In this document: positions 7,440-56,902 of the stretch, piece by piece
How positions within the stretch are numbered: the stretch's first letter is position 1
Layout of the letters: every line of letters begins with the position of its first letter
From: Citrus sinensis
Lineage: Eukaryota; Streptophyta; Magnoliopsida; Sapindales; Rutaceae
Direction: 5' to 3'
DNA length: 64,000 bases
Assembly: GCF_022201045.2 (NCBI RefSeq)
Contig: NC_068557.1
Span: forward strand, 8,680,001 to 8,744,000
Program-made: the position numbers and the translations under genes
Notes under the pieces: generated by a model
Database searches by the model: none
Seen by the model: only the letters and a program-made list of their open reading frames with translations
Told to the model about the DNA's origin: nothing

Positions 7440-7732
7440 ATGGTGGAAACAAAGAACCCAGAAGAACCCACATTGCCTTCGAAGCGCAAGCCCGATGTAA
7501 GCTGCGAAGATCACCCGAACAAGGCCCGAAAGCTTCAATCTTCAAACAACAATTCTCAACTTCCAGAGGACAAATCTCGAGGGCCAGATGAAAAGCTCGT
7601 CAATTCAGATGCTCAATTAGACGAAAACGGAGACGATGGTGAAAACGACGACGAAGAGAATAATGGGGAAGTTGTCGTAGATAGAAAGGGCAAGGGAATT
7701 TTAATAGAGGAGGATGATGGAGATGATGATAG

Positions 7733-7769
<37 letters not shown>

Positions 7770-7949
7770 TCGAGTGATGGATGGAATCAATCCGACGGTG
7801 AGAGTGATTTGTCTGATGATCCATTGGCGGAGGTTGATTTGGACAATATTCTTCCGTCCAGGACTAGAAGGAGGGTAACTAAGCCCGGGGAATTTGTTGC
7901 CAATGATCTTGCTGACGATGATAGTGATAGTGACGATGAAGATGCTTGA
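7440..7949 (+). CDS. Small acidic nuclear protein resembling histone chaperone CHZ1
   Basis: Single open frame of 169 codons starting at an ATG in a favourable context (TTTCAATGG). The N-terminal 35 residues carry basic clusters (SKRKP, KARK) that could act as nuclear signals. Residues about 60-125 are extremely acidic, including an unbroken run of 11 Asp. Near residues 132-146 the segment DLDNILPSRTRRR resembles the CHZ motif of Chz1-type H2A.Z-H2B chaperones, in which an acidic stretch precedes a hydrophobic pair and a basic RTR element. The tail is again acidic. By family knowledge such proteins bind H2A.Z-H2B dimers in the nucleus. Assignment rests on one short motif and composition, so it could be another acidic nuclear protein. 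The upstream A-rich leader and lack of competing frames make it a credible gene. Confidence 0.68.
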
Positions 7950-19787: not shown

Positions 19788-19791
19788 ATGA
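19774..19791 (+). promoter_or_regulatory. Five-codon upstream ORF abutting the AFB start
   Basis: ATG TTA AGC GAA AGA TGA. The TGA stop shares its final A with the second of the two tandem main-frame ATGs (19788 and 19791). A ribosome finishing here sits directly on the main start, an arrangement that could tune initiation. Its function is inference. Confidence 0.6.
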
Positions 19792-22101
19792 TGAATTATT
19801 TTCCAGATGAGGTAATAGAGCACGTGTTCGATTTCGTGACATCGCAGAAAGACAGAAACGCCGTATCGTTGGTGTGCAAATCATGGTACAAAATCGAACG
19901 ACTGAGCAGGCAAAGTGTGTTCATCGGGAACTGCTACGCGATCAGCCCAGAAAGGGTGATCGGGAGGTTTCGGGGGCTGAAGTCGTTGACTTTGAAGGGG
20001 AAGCCGCATTTTGCGGACTTCAACTTGCTTCCGTATGACTGGGGCGGGTGGGTGTACCCGTGGGTCGAAGCTTTGGCTAAGAGTCGGGTCGGGTTAGAGG
20101 AGTTGAGATTGAAGAGGATGGTAGTGTCTGATGACTGTCTTGAGTTGCTGTCGAGGTCGTTTGTGAATTTTAAGTCGCTGGTTCTTGTTAGCTGTGAGGG
20201 GTTTACCACTGATGGATTGGCTGCTATTGCTGCCAATTGTAGGTAAGAATCTTTATTTATCATTGTTATTATTATTGTTTTTGAATTTTTTGTTGTTACT
20301 ATTTGTTTTTGATGAGTTCTTTTATTTGATTGGTGGTGAGTTTTGGAGAGTTCACTGATAGGCTTGTTTCACTTTAGCCTATTTGAAAGTTAGCTTGTGA
20401 TAGACTTGTGATAAGTTATCTAATGAATGCTTAGTCTGATGGTTCTTCCATTTTTGATGTTTTACTGCTAATGTATATCGATCCTGAAATTTGTAAGGAG
20501 ATACAGAAATGTTGCCGATATAGTTTTTATTACTGAGCATGCTTGGCTACTTAATTTAATTGTTGCAGTGTCTTTTATAATTAAAAAACGATATCAATGG
20601 CTAAGTGGACAACTTTCGTTCTGTCAATCAATTTTCTATACTGTCTGTTTAGATGGTCTATTGTGATGTAATTTTCCTCAGTATGTTGGCTGGAGGTGAA
20701 TACTTGGCAATTGGCATGGACTATGTTCCTAACTTTTCTTTGTTTTTGCTGTTCTTAGGTATCTTAGGGAGCTTGACTTGCAAGAAATTGAAGTAGATGA
20801 TAATAGAGGACAGTGGATTAGCTGCTTTCCTGATAGCTGCACCTCTCTTGTCTCCCTGAATTTCTCATGCCTCAAAGGAGAAATTAATTTGACAGCCCTT
20901 GAGAGACTTGTAGCAAGGTCTCCTAATCTCAAAAGTTTGAGGTTAAATCGGGCAGTGCCTCTTGACACCCTCCAAAAATTGTTGATGCGAGCTCCTCAAC
21001 TAGTAGACTTAGGCATCGGCTCATTTGTATATGATCCATCTTCTGAGGCCTACATCAAATTGAAGGCTACCCTTGTGAAGTGTAAGTCAATAAGAAGTTT
21101 GTCAGGATTTTTGGAGGTTGTTCCTTGCTGCCTGTCGGCTATTCATCCTGTTTGCCAGAACCTAACTTCGTTGAATCTAAGCTATGCTCCGGGCATTCAT
21201 GGTAATGAGCTAATAAAGCTAATTCGGTTCTGCAGGAAACTTGAGCGATTATGGGTATGTTCTTAAAACCTGTTCACTCTTGCATATAAGATTATTTTCA
21301 AAGTGAGATGAATGACCATATCTTCCATAACCTATGCAGATACTGGATTCTATTGGAGACAGAGGACTAGGAGTTGTAGCTTTCACCTGTAAAGAATTGC
21401 AAGAATTGAGGGTTTTCCCATCTGGGGTCGACAATGCTGCTGTAACAGAGGAAGGCCTGGTTGCCATATCAGCTGGTTGCCCGAAGCTGCATTCATTGCT
21501 TTACTTCTGCCAGCAAATGACTAATGCCGCCCTAATAACTGTAGCCAAGAATAATTCAAATTTCACTCGCTTCAGATTGTGCATCCTTGACCGTGAAAAA
21601 CCTGACCCTGTCACCATGCAGCCTTTGGATGAAGGTTTTGGGGCAATTGTACAATCATGCAAGCGTCTAAGGCGATTGTCACTCTCTGGCCTTTTAACTG
21701 ACCAGGTTTTCCTTTACATTGGAATGTATGCTGAGCAGCTGGAAATGCTTTCTATTGCATTTGCTGGGAATAGCGACAAGGGAATGCTGTATGTATTGAA
21801 CGGGTGCAAGAAGCTCCGCAAGCTGGAAATCAGGGACAGCCCCTTCGGTAACACAGCACTTCTGACGGACGTGGGAAAGTATGAGACAATGCGATCCCTT
21901 TGGATGTCGTCCTGCGAAGTTACCCTTGGAGGCTGCCAGACACTTGCGAAGAAGATGCCTAGGCTCAATGTGGAGATCATAAATGAAGATGATCAGATGG
22001 AGTTTAGCCTGGATGATAGACAAAAAGTAGGGAAGATGTATTTGTACCGCACCCTGGTCGGGCCAAGGAAAGATGCGCCAGATTTTGTGTGGACTCTCTA
22101 A
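19788..22101 (+). CDS. AFB2: TIR1/AFB-type auxin receptor F-box protein (AFB2/3 clade)
   Basis: Three exons read cleanly: 19788-20242, 20759-21254 and 21340-22101, all with GT..AG introns, giving 570 residues (family about 570-595). The first 45 residues form the F-box ([12 protein letters not shown] then SLVCKSW), which docks on SKP1/ASK in an SCF ubiquitin ligase. The rest is leucine-rich repeats. Known functional segments are present: [10 protein letters not shown] near residues 70-80, FRLCI (Arg at about 396, matching the TIR1 arginine that contacts auxin carboxylate) and LSLSGLLTD near 430-438. The protein binds auxin and Aux/IAA repressors in the nucleus. The N-terminus and sequence style are closer to AFB2/AFB3 than to TIR1. 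Two ATGs occur in tandem; the second matches the AFB2 start. Regulation: a miR393 site in exon 3 and an upstream ORF. The gene converges on the CYSTM-type gene at 22851-24466. Confidence 0.95.
21883..21904 (+). promoter_or_regulatory. miR393 target site in AFB exon 3
   Basis: The run CAATGCGATCCCTTTGGA is perfectly complementary to the first 18 nt of miR393. The only mismatches are three positions facing the miRNA 3' end. The same site, in the same part of the LRR coding region (ETMRSLW), is the established cleavage site in TIR1, AFB2 and AFB3. Confidence 0.93.
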
Positions 22102-25972: not shown

Positions 25973-27442
25973 TTAATTTGTATCGTTTTCTAGGTTCTTC
26001 CACTTTTGAGCCACGTTGGCTAGTGATTTGGTAGAGAATCCATCTGGGCTCAAAGCATTTGCAGCAGCATCCTTTAGTACTCTCATCTTGTCCCTCAACA
26101 ACTTGCCATCTTCTCCTTGAATCAATCCCCTCGCATATGTTGCTACCTCTTCTCTCCCCACTAGTCCATCTTCGTTGACTTTGACCCTCCATGCAACCTT
26201 CAAATCATCTGTGAGAAGCACAGCATTCATCTTTTGCTCTGCATACAGTGGCCACGCAATTATAGGGACACCATGCACAATGCTTTCTAGAACTGAGTTC
26301 CAGCCACAATGGCTCAAGAACCCTCCGGTGGAGCCATGGCTCAGGACTTGAATCTGAGGGGCCCAAGAGGGCACCACTAGACCCACACCTTTGGTTCTAT
26401 CTAAGAACCCTTTCGGTAAATAATCAAAAGGATTTTCTTCTTTCATGCCGTGGACACCAAAGTAAGTGGCATTCGTAGCTTTCTCATCTGGGCATTTTAC
26501 AACCCAGAGAAATCTTTGTCCACTCATCTCAAGTCCTAAAGCCAACTCATTTAACTGCTTTTGTGACAAAGTTCCCCCACTGCCAAAACAAACAAACAGA
26601 ACTGACCCATTTGGCTGGTCATCTAACCACTTCAAACAGTCGGTTTTGTCGGATTCATTGATTGATCCGGTCAGAATCAGCGGTCCAACCGGGTAAACCG
26701 GAGGCAGCCTGAAGCTTGATTCCCTACTTTCCATTAAAGCCTTGAAAGCCCCCGGTTCCAAATCCATGAAACTATTAACCAGAATCCCAGCTGCTAAAGG
26801 GTACTGTTTGGCCAAGTGGATAATAGATTGATAAGTCTCGCTGTTTCTCTCTTGGAGACAGTCTTCCAAATCAGGACCGCAAATCGGGACACAGCCGGGC
26901 AATTGGACCGGTTCTGGCAAGTCTTTAAAGTCACAAGTAAACTTGTGATCAAGCTCAGGCAAATAAAATACCAGAGACAAGTCCATGGCTGTTGTTGAAA
27001 AGAAAACGTATATCGGAACACCGAATTCTCGAGTCACAGTGAAGGCCTCCAAGCCAAAAAGATCAACAACTAGAGCAACCAGTCGAGTTGACTGATCAGT
27101 TGTTAAGTTGTTGAGTGTCTCTCGCAGAGCAGAAAGAGAGCGAGTGAGGGTGAGCGTGATCCGAACTTCGATGCTAACGTCCTCGTGATCAGGCAAGTCG
27201 TCGAAACTCACAGGAGGAAGAAGGATGGTGGAGATGGAAGTGGGTGGCAAAGATTCAAGCACTTGTTTTCGTGGCTGCATGGGGGAGCCGTCGTGGGGGA
27301 TAATGAAAGTGACGTGAAAGTTGTGTTGAAGAACGAGTCGCTTAGCTAGCTCAACTAGTGGAATAAAGTGACCCATGCCTGGTGTTGGCACCAGGGCCAC
27401 GCTGATCGATTGTTTTATGTGTTGCGTGGTCTCCAACTCCAT
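25973..27442 (-). CDS. UDP-glycosyltransferase, UGT72-like (hydroquinone/phenylpropanoid glucosyltransferase)
   Basis: Intronless minus-strand frame. I start it at 27442 (METLE-like N-terminus, then VALVPTPGMGHFIPLVELA), giving 489 residues, the normal length for group E UGTs. The frame stays open 86 codons further upstream, but that extension is AT-rich promoter DNA. The catalytic His is at residue 25 (GMGHFIP) and the partner Asp at 127 (VVDLFG). The 44-residue PSPG sugar-donor box runs from Trp360 to Gln403 (WAPQ, SHCGWNS, WPLYAEQ), and its final Gln is typical of UDP-glucose users. Family members glucosylate small phenolics, monolignols or xenobiotics in the cytosol. The exact acceptor cannot be told from sequence. 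All key residues are intact, so it is probably active. Part of its upstream region is duplicated at 31688-32540. Confidence 0.93.
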   Translation of the reverse strand: MELETTQHIKQSISVALVPTPGMGHFIPLVELAKRLVLQHNFHVTFIIPHDGSPMQPRKQVLESLPPTSISTILLPPVSFDDLPDHEDVSIEVRITLTLTRSLSALRETLNNLTTDQSTRLVALVVDLFGLEAFTVTREFGVPIYVFFSTTAMDLSLVFYLPELDHKFTCDFKDLPEPVQLPGCVPICGPDLEDCLQERNSETYQSIIHLAKQYPLAAGILVNSFMDLEPGAFKALMESRESSFRLPPVYPVGPLILTGSINESDKTDCLKWLDDQPNGSVLFVCFGSGGTLSQKQLNELALGLEMSGQRFLWVVKCPDEKATNATYFGVHGMKEENPFDYLPKGFLDRTKGVGLVVPSWAPQIQVLSHGSTGGFLSHCGWNSVLESIVHGVPIIAWPLYAEQKMNAVLLTDDLKVAWRVKVNEDGLVGREEVATYARGLIQGEDGKLLRDKMRVLKDAAANALSPDGFSTKSLANVAQKWKNLENDTN

Positions 27443-27667
27443 TGAGAGAGATAAAAAAAGAAAGAAATTAAGAAGACGATAATTGCGCATTGAAGATGAG
27501 AACAAAAGGCCACCGTAAATGTATAAATATTGATATGGGGCCATATCGTGCGGTCTTTGCGAGAAAAGATCAGTGGAGTTTTCATATTGATTTTGATGTA
27601 CCACCCAGAAAGCAAATGATGGATGTTCTTGACTTAGTCCTGAATAGTGGTAGCACTGCAACAAAGG

Positions 27668-27870
27668 CATTATCATATGCCACGTACCTGCAATCAACAC
27701 AAGACCTGTGTCGCCTAAAATAATCGGCTGTTTGAATAGGTCTGCAGAAGTTTATTAAGGTGTTAGCTGAAAACTTTTTGTACTTAATAGCAATTTGAAA
27801 TACAAAAGGGTACGAGGGGTTAAATGAAAATTTACATACTGTAACAAATGATAAAAAAGTGACGTGGTAC
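27668..27870 (-). promoter_or_regulatory. Upstream region of the UGT gene (source copy of a duplication)
   Basis: Contains TGCCACGTACCTGCAATC (an ACGT-core G-box/ABRE-like word) 230-260 bp upstream of the UGT start codon. The same segment recurs at 31688-31857 plus 32498-32540. Conservation of the ACGT core in both copies is seen directly. A regulatory role is inference. Confidence 0.55.
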
Positions 27871-44348: not shown

Positions 44349-47300
44349 TTGGCCAGTAGACCTAACAAAGAAGCCAAAATAAGACATAATACCATCACAT
44401 TTGCAGACGAAGAAGCAAGAGAAATACATCAGCCCCATGATGATGCCCTGGTCATCTTCATAATCTTGGCAAATATGAAGGTCTATAGAGTTTTGATCGA
44501 CAATGGACGTTCGGTAAATATTTTGTATGCAGCAGCATTTAACAAAATAGAGAATGGAAGCGAGAAATTAAAACCAGTACGCACACCTTTTATAGATTTT
44601 GAAAGAGAATGTTTGATCCCTTTGGGTAGCATAAAGTTACTAGTGACAATTGGAGAACCACCTCACCAAGCTACTAAAATGATAAATTTTTTAGTAGTGG
44701 AACATCCGTCGGTTTATAATGTCATTTTAGGAAGACCTTCTTTAAATATGTTCCAAGTAGTAACTTCAACTTATCATTTGATGATGAAGTTTCCAACAGA
44801 AGGAGGAGTTGGAGTCTTAAGAGCTGATCAAGAGGAGTCCAGAAGATGCTATGCTACAGCTTTGAGAGGCAAGATTACGCTTGACCCAAGAGAAGAAAAA
44901 GGTGAGCAAAGGGGTTCTCCAGTAGAAGAATTGGACATAGTTCAGTTGCAACAAGGAGATGAAAGTAAGTGCACCTGAGTTAACCAGTCGTTGACTCCAT
45001 AGCTACGTGCACAAATTGAAAATTTCCTTAGGGCTAATTCTGGCGTATTCGCATCATCCCATGAAGACATGTCTGGAATAAATCCTGAAGTAATAACCCA
45101 TCGATTGAATGTTAATCCAGGCTTTAAATCAGTATGACAAAAAAAGAGGTCCTTTAATCCAGAAATGTATGAAGCAATTGTTGAGGTAGTTGATAAACTG
45201 CTAAAAGCGGGATTTATTAGAGAAGTGCATTACCCTGCTTGGTTAGTCAACATAGTAATGGTTAAAAAACCAAATGGAAAGTGGAGAATCTGCATAGATT
45301 TTACTGACTTGAACAAAGAATGTCCCAAGGATAGCTTTCCTTTACCAAGAATTGACCAGCTAGTTGATGCAATCGCCGGACATGAATTACTCACATTTAT
45401 GAATGTTAATCCAGGCTTCAAACCAGTATGACAAAAAAAGAGGTCCTTTAATCCAGAAAGGTATGAAGCAATTGCTGAGGAAGTTGATAAACTGCTAAAA
45501 ACGGGATTTATTAGAGAAGTGCATTACCCTGCTTGGTTAGTCAACGTAGTAATGATTAAAAAACCAAATGGAAAGTGGAGAATCTGCATAGATTTTACTA
45601 ACTTGAACAAAGGATGCCCCAAGGATAGCTTTCATTTACCCAGAATTGACCAGCTAGTTGATGCAACCGCCGGGCATGAATTACTCACATTTATGGATGC
45701 GTACTCAGGTTACAACCAAATTCAAATGCATCATTCAGACAAGAAAAACAACATTCATCACAAATAAATGCTTATATTGTTATAATGTAATGCCTTTTGG
45801 GTTGAAAAATACTGGAGCAACTTATCAAAGGTTGGTCAACAAGATATTTCCGCGACAAATTAGAAGGAATATGGAGGTTTATGTAGATGACATGCTTGTT
45901 AAAAGTAGAAAAATGGAAGACCACGTTGCAGACCTAAAGGAAACTTTCAAAATACTGAAACAATTTAGTATGAAACTTAATCCAAGTAAATATGCTTTTG
46001 GAGTCTCCTCTGAAAAATTCTTAGGATTTATAGTCAGTCAACGAGGAATAGAAGCTAATTCAGAAAAAATTCAGGCTCTCTTAGATATGGAGTCACCAAA
46101 CACGATAAAAGAGGTCCAAAGACTAACAGGGAGGGTTGCTGCCTTGAATCGATTCATTTCGCGAGCAACAAATAAATGCTTGCCATTATTTAAAACTCTC
46201 AGTGGAGGAAAGAATTTAGTATGGATAGATGAATGCAAGAAAGCATTCCAGGAACTGAAAAAGTACATGGGAAGCCCACCAATTCTTTCCAAACCAGTAC
46301 CAGGGGAAAACTTGTACATTTACTTACTAGTGTCGGACTCAGTGGTGAGCTTAATATTAATAAGAGAGGAGGATAGAGTGCAAAAACCTATCTACTACAT
46401 GAGCCATGCATTATTAGACGCTGAAACGAGATATTCGATGATTGAAAAAATGGCCCTGGCATTGATGGTCTTTGCTAAGAAATTAAGACCCTATTTTCAA
46501 GTCCACACGATAATAGTACTGACAAATCAACCCCTTAGACAGGTCATGCAAAAACTAGAAGCGTCTGGAAGATTAGTCTAATGGGCAGTAGAACTGGGAG
46601 AGCACGATATTCAGTATCAGCCTAGAACAACAATCAAAGGACAAGCTGTTGCCGATTTTGTGGTAGAATTTACCAGTATCAGCTCAGAAAGGAAAGAATT
46701 AACTATGGAGCTTTGCAAACCTGGAAGTTATATGTGGATGATTCATCAAATCGACAAGGAAGTGGGGCATGACTAATTCTAGTGACTCCAGAAAATATTG
46801 AACTGAGTTCTGCCCTTTGATTTGGATTCCAGGCCTCCAACAATGAAGCAGAATATGAAGCACTACTCGCTGGACTTAGATGGGCAAAAGAAATGGGGAC
46901 AAAAACGTTGGAAATATATAGTGATTCACAATTGATTGTGAACCAAGTCAAGTCAGAATACTAGGCAAAAGAAGATAAAATGATGGAATATCTTGGGAAA
47001 GTTAAGGGATTGCGACAGTTTTGTGAAATACACCAACAACAAAAATTTCAAAGGAAGAAAATGGTAAAGCAGATGCTCTTGCTAGGTTAGTCTCAATTAC
47101 TGACACAAGCCTAACCAGACTTATTCTTATGGAATTTTTACCAAGCCCAAGTATTAATGAAAGGAAAAGTGTTAAAGTCAGTCTCATTGTCACAAATTGG
47201 AGTTGGATGGATCCCATCATCGATTATCTAAAAAATAAAAGGTTACTAGACAGCAAACAAGAAGCAAGAAGGATAAGACCGAGGTCAGCACGGTACGTGA

Positions 47301-48190
47301 TTCTAAAGGATGTATTATACAAAAGGGGATACTCATTGCCCTACCTTCGATGCCTGGATCCTGAAGAGACAAGTTATGTGATGAGAGAAATCCATGAGGG
47401 AATCTGCGGCAACCATTCTGGTGCTAGGTCCTTAGCTCTAAAAGTAGTTCGCCAAGGATACTTTTGGCCCACGATAAAAGAAGAAACATACAAGTTTGTC
47501 CAGCAGTGTGACAAATGTCAGAGATATTCCAATATCCCTCGCTAGCCTCCAGAACAACTCACCCCAATCACCAGCCCCTGGCTGTTTGCTCAGTGGGGCA
47601 TAGACATCATTGGTCCAATGCCAACATACAAGGGACAAACCAAGGTTGTCGTAGTGGCAGTGGACTATTTTACTAAATGGGCCGAAGCAAAACTTTTGGC
47701 GCAAATTACAGAACAAAAGACAACGGCTTTTGTATGGAAATATATTATATGTAGATTCAGAATCCCTCAAGCTACTGTAATAGATAATGGAAAGCAATTT
47801 GACAATCCTCGTTTTAGGGGATTATGTTAGAGTGTTGGAATCAAGAATTTCTTTTCTTCACCATCCCACCCTCAAGCTAACGGGCAAGTGGAGGCTATTA
47901 ATAAAATAATAAAGCACCACCTAAAGACCAAGTTAGAAAAGCACAAGGGAGCTTGGGCAGATTAGCTCCCATTCGTATTGTGGTCATATAGGAGAACGCA
48001 TACTACAACAACTAGAGAAACACCATATTCCTTAGCGTTTGGTACGGAGGCAGTGATTCCAGTTGAAATAGGGATGCCATCATATAGAGTACAACATTTT
48101 CAGCCAGAGCAAAATGAGGAGCAGCTGAGATTCAGTCTTGACTTATTGGAAGAAAAAAGAGAACAAGCCCGACTTAGAACAAGCAAAAGG
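44349..48190 (+). pseudogene. gypsy pol (protease, RT, two RNase H, integrase), interrupted
   Basis: Protease near 44465-44540 has VLIDNGRSVNILY, with Asn in the usual Ser/Thr position of the D-S/T-G triad. The reverse transcriptase finger/palm region 45107-45400 is repeated in frame at 45401-45694. The YVDDML catalytic box follows near 45880. RNase H ends near 46580 at a stop. The second RNase H lies at about 46720-46960 with three stops. Integrase has a zinc-binding region (HEGICGNHSGAR ... QCDKCQRY, 47390-47525), the core WGIDIIGPMP near 47600, and DNGKQF near 47790. A stop at 47828 and others follow. Order and motifs are clear, but the frame is broken many times. Confidence 0.9.
45107..45694 (+). 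repeat. 294-bp in-frame tandem duplication inside reverse transcriptase
   Basis: Copies 45107-45400 and 45401-45694 are about 95% identical, each starting GAATGTTAATCCAGGCTT or its drifted form. Each includes REVHYPAWLVN and KPNGKWRICIDFT. The period of 98 codons keeps the frame. Confidence 0.93.
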
Positions 48191-54735: not shown

Positions 54736-56902
54736 TTAGCGCTTCTTTTTGCTTCCTTTTGCAGCTGACTTTGATGGGGAAGTGATCAAATACACAAACA
54801 GAACAATAATGGAGATAACCGAGATTTGAGAGCCGTACTTTGCCAACAACCTCTGCAAAATAGGAAATGACGATAAGATCAAGGGAAATGTATACATACA
54901 TATTCGTTTAGGCAGTGATCAAGAGAAATGTATACAATCATTATACAAACCTGATGCATATATGGTATATTAAAACAAGTTTTTAAGATAATTGAAATAC
55001 AATTATTCAGAGTCAGTATAAACAATGCCTCTGCTTTTCAACCTACTTGGGCAAAATACAATATATTTGGCTAAATACTTAAACAAATAATAGGCTTGGT
55101 TAACACGAGATCCAGAAAACCATTAATCCATTGCAAATAGAAAACAATTAATACCTTGCACATTAAGTTGCCAAATACATTTTCAGATCATAAACTGTAA
55201 ATTTCATGGACCAATCAGTAAAGATTTTTAGCATTGTAATTGGAATCTGATTTATCAAATGGAAATTAAACAAAAAAAAAAAAGAATTTTGTACTTTTGA
55301 GATCTGAGAAGCATTTCAAAGACAATTGTCTGAAAATAAAAAAAATCTTAGCTTTGGAACAAGTATCTTATGGAACAGGATTTTGTTTATTTTCTTTGTC
55401 CCACTTTCCAGAAATGTGGAAAGTGTTTTAACTGTTTTTGAATTTTAAAACTTTTTTCTTCAGCATGAATTGAGCTTTATAAATTGCAAGAAAGGCCAGT
55501 CTTCCGAAACAATATAAAACACGGCTTTTGTAGTTTGGTTCCATTCTGTAGTTTATCTAAAACCACTTCACAAAATCCTTAGCAAGCAGGACCAAAATAG
55601 AAACACTGAATTGCTTTTTCAGAAAAAATGCAACACTTGCTCTTCTACTTTCACAATACATATATGAAGTATGATAAAAAACAATCCTTCAATTAGTTAC
55701 CAAATGTAACCATACACAAATCACTTCATCTAATTGCACTGTCATCCAAGGTTAAAAGATTCCAAGATTATTTAAGCAATAAAATTCATAAAATTGTCAG
55801 CTAATCATTATTATTTCAATCATCAAGCCATGCTCCAATAAACTATAGATTCAAGTCACTTCAAATCCATACAGAATCCAAACACAAGTTAAAAGAGAAA
55901 ACTTCATAATTCAAATATTGTAAAGAAAAATATCATTCATACCTTAGCCTGCAGACGTTTTCCCACAACCAATGAAGATCATCCCATGAAACAACAACAA
56001 AGCATTGATGTTAAACCACAAGTTTACTCAATACATCAGCTACATTTTTTAACACAAAGAAAAATAACATACCAACTCCAATTTATTTTCAGTGGGTTTC
56101 TCTGCAAGGACATCTAGTGGCAACATGGGGGTCGAGTATGCCTCCTACATAAAAGAAACAGCACAATAAATTACAACTGCCTACGATTTGTGTTTATGCA
56201 AGATTTGAACACTGAACACTGAACACTGAATAAATCACACCTGAAGGGCAGCCTTAGTAGGGATACGGAAAGTAATGAGAGCTGGAGAACCATGAAACAT
56301 TCCTTTAACTTTGGCATCCAATTCGAAAGAATGTGAAAGAATACCACCGCTGCAATTTCAACATACATAATTCAGCAATTACTCGTCGAATTCAAATTTT
56401 CGTTTAAGAGAAAAAAAATTATGAAAAATAGCATTACTGCAAATAATTATAACTCACGCATCAAGTCTTTCCCATGACTGTGAAATGTTACCGCTGATTA
56501 CATCAAACTTATCTTGTGGCCAGCTATCATCTGTCAGGCTCACATCATAGGCAGTCCTGTCAAAAAGATTCTCAATCAATTTCCTCATACGATGTCGTTT
56601 TAGTTGTGATTATAGATTTAATAATTGAAAACATGCGCGAGATCAATCAAACAAAACATCAAGACTAGATCTGAATGAAGATAACAGAAGTGATTATTAT
56701 TCTACGAAAAATGGACTTACGAAGTGCCTTGATTGTAGATATCGACGGAGACGGAGACCCGCTCGGCGCCGGATTTGAGGCGTTTAAGAGAAGCCTTCTT
56801 GTGGGCAACGATGAAGGGAACGTCTGAGCTGGCAAATGATGACGAGATCAAGAAGAGAGCGATCAAAACTGAGATCAGAGACTTGCTGATCGGACTCGCC
56901 AT
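54736..56902 (-). CDS. Translocon-associated protein subunit beta (TRAP-beta/SSR2)
   Basis: Six minus-strand exons join without frame errors: 56721-56902, 56458-56556, 56241-56349, 56073-56144, a 6-nt microexon 55943-55948, and 54736-54852. They encode 194 residues (family about 190). Signal peptide at residues 1-24, then the luminal domain beginning SDVPFIVAHKKA, with YDVSLTDD, one N-glycosylation sequon (Asn84 in GNIS), SWERLDAGG and ITFRIPTKAALQEAYSTP. The AKRLLAKYGSQ segment spans the microexon junctions. One membrane helix lies at about 166-181 (SVISIIVLFVYLI), followed by a short cytosolic Lys-rich tail ending KKKR. TRAP-beta is an ER membrane subunit that sits beside the Sec61 channel and assists translocation of secretory proteins. 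No defects seen, and housekeeping expression is expected. All junctions have GT..AG on the minus strand. Confidence 0.93.
55943..55948 (-). other. 6-nt microexon (GCTAAG, Ala-Lys) of TRAP-beta
   Basis: Flanked by CTGCAG on its 5' side and GTATGA on its 3' side. It restores the family residues AK directly before RLLAKYG; without it the upstream exon (ENKLEL) would join straight to RLLAKYG. Both neighbouring junctions are phase 0. Confidence 0.78.

Follow-up and report, generated by a model that had tools for sequence, protein, structure and literature searches.

A probable six-nucleotide microexon in a plant TRAP-beta gene

The window, by which we mean the whole 64,000-nucleotide stretch of DNA that was analysed (C2:8680001-8744000), carries on its minus strand, at 56902-54736, a TRAP-beta (SSR2) gene with six coding exons, read and assembled by script from the minus strand between 58500 and 54001 (Table 1). 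TRAP-beta is a subunit of the endoplasmic reticulum protein-import machinery. All five introns of the gene are of the GT-AG type, and exons 3 and 4 as well as the putative microexon, GCTAAG, end in phase 0. The spliced reading frame of 194 residues matches the Pfam TRAP_beta family, PF05753, from position 4 to position 176 of a 178-position profile (E 4.8e-54), and this near full-length match stands above the gathering cut-off of 22.4 bits both with the six bases (182.9 bits) and without them (183.4 bits). Animal TRAP-beta chains in the PDB also match the spliced product (three distinct sequences, E 4.4e-13 to 1.7e-11), in alignments that stop at query residue 123 or 124, N-terminal of the microexon residues; two weak matches (E 0.47 and 0.71) among the five distinct PDB sequences up to E 1 bear unrelated names. 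Both the Pfam and the PDB matches uphold the original prediction's identification of the gene. A C-terminal membrane helix is found in the product, the most hydrophobic 19-residue stretch past residue 60 being 163-181, and the basic tail that follows it ends in KGSKKKR.

Table 1. Coding exons of the TRAP-beta gene and the two introns flanking the predicted microexon; a slash marks an exon border.
Feature	Position in window	Strand	Remarks
Exon 1, coding part	56721..56902	-	ATG at 56902; donor TTC/GTAAGT; open frame; N terminus hydrophobic by eye
Exon 2	56458..56556	-	donor TGC/GTGAGT
Exon 3	56241..56349	-	donor CAG/GTGTGA
Exon 4	56073..56144	-	ends in phase 0; donor TTG/GTATGT
Intron upstream of microexon	55949..56072	-	124 nt, 34% GC
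Predicted 6-nt microexon, GCTAAG (Ala155-Lys156)	55943..55948	-	phase 0; CTGCAG/GCTAAG/GTATGA
Intron downstream of microexon	54853..55942	-	1090 nt, 29% GC
Exon 6, last coding exon	54736..54852	-	start TTTTGCAG/AGG at 54852; membrane helix, basic tail, TAA stop

No second copy of TRAP-beta was seen when the genome to which the window belongs (299.7 Mb in 11 contigs) was searched with the protein, all five matches falling inside one gene. No retrocopy was seen either: the 195-nt spliced cDNA of exon 4, microexon and exon 6 matched the same genome at exons 4 and 6 only. Such a search scores the best candidates only, and its outcome for retrocopies and paralogs speaks neither for nor against inclusion of the microexon. 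Relatives of the locus were confirmed neither in viral_contigs (6 pattern stretches) nor in genome_contigs (73 stretches).

Several other features lie elsewhere in the window. On the plus strand, an open reading frame at 19788-20246 matches the F-box and TIR1-type Transp_inhibit domains and another at 21334-22101 has a weak LRR match alone, below the cut-off; judging from these frames, 19788-22101 is probably an auxin-receptor-like (TIR1/AFB) gene, the open reading frame between them (20778-21266) having been left out of the scan. A long uninterrupted open reading frame on the minus strand, 25973-27700, matches UDP-glycosyltransferases (PF00201); the GTG listed mechanically as its start probably lies upstream of the true initiation codon, an ATG within the frame. 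The F-box gene with its TIR1-type domain and this glycosyltransferase gene accord with a plant source of the window. Pieces of a reverse transcriptase, an RNase H and an integrase zinc-binding domain occupy separate plus-strand reading frames at 45658-47545, as in a decayed retrotransposon; the frame just upstream of them, 44349-44978, has no Pfam match. An acidic plus-strand reading frame at 7440-7949 weakly matches the CHZ histone-chaperone motif (20.9 bits, cut-off 23.3).

Within the TRAP-beta gene, the interval between exons 4 and 6 spans 1220 nt and would be a single intron if GCTAAG were skipped. The original prediction had placed a six-base exon in this interval, and, read on the minus strand, its coordinates for the end of exon 4 (56073), for the six bases (55948-55943) and for the start of exon 6 (54852) are exact to the single base. 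Equally correct are the GT-AG sites that it described around GCTAAG, with CTGCAG before and GTATG after, and the in-phase supply of Ala-Lys: the flanking exon ends in phase 0 and GCTAAG reads as these two residues, so that inclusion would give Ala155-Lys156 in the context KLEL-AK-RLLAKYG. Keeping either of the flanking introns in the transcript leads to an early stop. The spliced reading frame is 194 residues long with GCTAAG and 192 without it, and because both versions are open the frame cannot choose between them; the splice sites and the chance level of the site must decide.

The donor of the microexon, AAG/GTATGA, agrees with CAG/GTAAGT at six of nine positions, while the gene's other four donors agree at five or six. 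On the acceptor side, the earlier description of a perfect CTGCAG is accurate for the last six bases but not beyond them, the preceding 20 nt holding just 8 pyrimidines. Counted over the 20 nt before CAG or its like, pyrimidines number 11, 9, 14, 8 and 15 in introns 1 to 5, which makes the tract upstream of the microexon the poorest of the five (8/20) and gives the downstream intron 15/20. The 124-nt upstream intron contains branch-like sites of the form YTNAY with the A at -39 and -25, and its last 78 nt are free of AG besides the acceptor itself. Visual inspection also showed two stretches upstream of this acceptor, one U-rich (TTTGTTGTTGTTTC) and one G-rich (GGTTGTGGG); motifs of both types are enriched near the microexons of plants (PMC8831610, section 7).

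A pyrimidine tract as poor as this could permit skipping. GCTAAG would then be a cassette exon, with inclusion varying between transcripts or tissues, and the gene would produce two forms of TRAP-beta that differ by Ala-Lys before the membrane helix. The length of the exon, a multiple of three, and the openness of both products are compatible with such a switch, and coding plant microexons do show alternative splicing, with PSI values mostly above 0.5 (PMC8831610). However, the same source describes most plant coding microexons as usually belonging to the major isoform, and the donor of GCTAAG is no weaker than the other donors of the gene; we consider alternative inclusion unlikely. The splice sites bear on a further reading, in which AAG/GTATGA at 55943/55942 is a zero-length recursive splice site at which the intron is removed in two parts and no coding bases are left. 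An AAG directly followed by a good donor does provide the necessary AG/GT juxtaposition, but CTGCAG, six bases upstream, is closer to the acceptor consensus. The first AG after the branch point is usually the one used as acceptor, and 1220 nt is short for an intron removed by recursive splicing; both points count against a ratchet site here, and its probability appears vanishingly small.

How readily could a site of this kind arise by chance? Leaving aside the outermost 40 nt on each side, the 1220-nt interval contains six candidates of the form AG-N6-GT, and CAG is joined to GTRNG in GCTAAG alone. The bare form is common: 20000 dinucleotide shuffles of the interval contained a mean of 2.87 candidates, at least one in 19025 shuffles and six or more in 1298. 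This abundance, like the poor pyrimidine tract before GCTAAG, favours the view that GCTAAG is a decoy, an AG-N6-GT that arose by chance and never serves as an exon, with exon 4 joined directly to exon 6 and a protein devoid of Ala-Lys. The more specific the match, the rarer it became: a CAG-N6-GTRNG candidate appeared in 647 of the 20000 shuffles, an Ala-Lys-encoding AG-N6-GT in 68, and one candidate with both properties in only 2, a figure that argues against a decoy. With the donor restricted to GTAA, GTAT, GTAC or GTGA followed by G, 5000 shuffles gave 0.34% for Ala-Lys, 1.58% for CAG plus donor and 0 for both. In the whole window, with both strands counted (128 kb), two sites have the form AG-GCNAAR-GT, namely GCTAAG and one at 20380 that has neither CAG nor GTRNG; four have the form CAG-N6-GTRNG, GCTAAG among them.

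Other candidates in the interval were compared with GCTAAG. A point against GCTAAG is a rival six-base site at 55329-55324 (TTTTCAG/ACAATT/GTCTTT), which has a richer pyrimidine tract but a poor donor; the sixth candidate, TGATTT, contains a stop. Other in-frame sizes yielded 2, 3, 1 and 2 candidates of 3, 9, 12 and 15 nt, respectively; none of them is Ala-Lys, and one of the 3-nt candidates, the 12-nt candidate and one of the 15-nt candidates contain a stop.

Plant TRAP-beta proteins presumably carry Ala-Lys before RLLAKYG. The original prediction had attributed the two residues to the family as a whole, which may hold for plants. For eukaryotes at large the Pfam profile does not support it, scoring the protein 0.5-0.6 bits higher without the insert. 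For the C-terminal part of the protein the scores are 66.9 bits with no insert, 66.6 with KK, 66.3 with AK, 65.9 with GG, 65.8 with TI, 65.6 with DF, 64.9 with IL and 64.6 with PP, where KK, TI, DF and IL derive from other candidates in the intron and GG and PP served as controls. With so small a spread, and with no insert scoring best, the profile was dropped as a discriminator between dipeptides. The open product without the insert, with its slightly better Pfam fit, is a further point for the decoy reading; the residues that we take to be present in plant relatives are a further point against it, and on balance we judge it quite improbable.

With the identity of the gene, the coordinates, the phase and the GT-AG sites all correct, and with a match well beyond chance, GCTAAG is most likely a genuine 6-nt microexon at the level of sequence. 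Very probably, then, this TRAP-beta gene contains an exon of only six bases that adds two amino acids. With considerable confidence we further propose that this in-frame microexon is constitutive and that the introns on its two sides are removed one at a time, through intron definition, in two consecutive steps. Two steps are envisaged since six bases would hardly leave room for U1 at GTATGA alongside the factors that bind the 3' site at CTGCAG; one flanking intron, of 124 nt or of 1090 nt, would leave first and the other afterwards.

This stepwise model is adopted by analogy with other ultra-short plant exons. Constitutive exons of this kind are established in plants, and consecutive removal of their introns has been proposed from read data (PMC8831610, PMC4674806). 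The two introns flanking a plant microexon are described as likely to be removed successively, the upstream one being more prone to detention (PMC8831610, section 7), and for a 9-nt exon of potato invertase a two-step order with the second intron first is quoted in PMC4674806. For a 1-nt plant exon that source favours intron definition coupled to removal of the introns in steps. The original prediction's claim that the spliceosome must recognise exons this short in a special way finds no support here.

In the protein, inclusion of Ala-Lys would lengthen the short charged linker before the membrane helix and increase its hydrophobic moment, as computed, from 0.34 to 0.45, with six residues lying between Lys156 and the hydrophobic stretch 163-181. 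In animals the TRAP-beta membrane helix forms a bundle with the helices of TRAP-gamma and TRAP-delta, and the basic C terminus of TRAP-beta makes contact with 5.8S rRNA; for TRAP-beta of the alga C. reinhardtii, binding to the ribosomal protein eL38 is predicted (PMC11186639). A two-residue change in the linker could alter its register. An extension of this idea, in which GCTAAG is a 6-nt cassette exon outside the 45 published plant clusters that switches the spacing and register of the TRAP-beta linker and so tunes the seat of plant TRAP on Sec61 and the ribosome, strikes us as far-fetched. If GCTAAG is included, joining the obvious exons alone gives a plant TRAP-beta that is two residues too short, and the gene would offer a natural test case for how the plant spliceosome handles a six-base exon between a short upstream intron (124 nt) and a longer downstream one (1090 nt). 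No concept is changed by such an exon, its kind being already established in plants.

Plant microexons of 1-15 nt are a known class, with 2398 in ten species; 16 of its 45 conserved clusters are in phase 0 (PMC8831610; MEPDB, PMC12409088). They are defined as internal coding exons of at most 15 nt with canonical AG/GT sites and in phase with both neighbours, and GCTAAG has each of these properties (6 nt, CTGCAG / GTATGA, phase 0); for a conserved cluster (MEP01-45), exon size, phase and flanking peptide have to be shared by three or more land plants. That annotation often misses exons so short, as the prediction had stated, agrees with PMC8831610. That paper also cautions that annotated microexons are without read support in 37% of cases in Arabidopsis, 60% in soybean and more than 90% in rice and maize. 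The main texts of PMC8831610 and PMC12409088, whose cluster lists sit in supplements, gave no word match to TRAP or translocon, and a word search for "translocon" found nothing in PMC10808074 or PMC6600660. We found no paper that combines microexon with "translocon-associated protein" and none that names a microexon in TRAP-beta, and a broader literature search returned no paper with both microexon and a TRAP term among the matches listed. A text search of the literature for the peptides AKRLLAKYG, RLLAKYGS, AKRLVAKYG and LLAKYGSL found no occurrence in the papers it returned. The 6-nt exon of TRAP-beta is perhaps best seen as a further member of the known class, possibly one already among the 45 published clusters.

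With those clusters (MEPmodeler/MEPDB; PMC8831610, PMC12409088) it shares an internal coding position, a length of no more than 15 nt and canonical GT-AG introns, along with U-rich and G-rich stretches upstream, which in TRAP-beta were identified by eye. Among animal microexons, those of chicken cTNT and of the neural gene printed as Abpp1 have six nucleotides like the TRAP-beta exon; the neural Abpp1 microexon is tissue-regulated, whereas TRAP-beta gives no sign of such regulation. As an ultra-short plant exon it resembles the 9-nt invertase exon and the 1-nt exon of Arabidopsis APC11, which are constitutive and for which consecutive removal of the flanking introns has been reported (invertase) or proposed (APC11) (PMC4674806, PMC8831610). 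Unlike those two exons, which belong to other genes and differ in size and phase, the TRAP-beta microexon would encode two residues of a linker.
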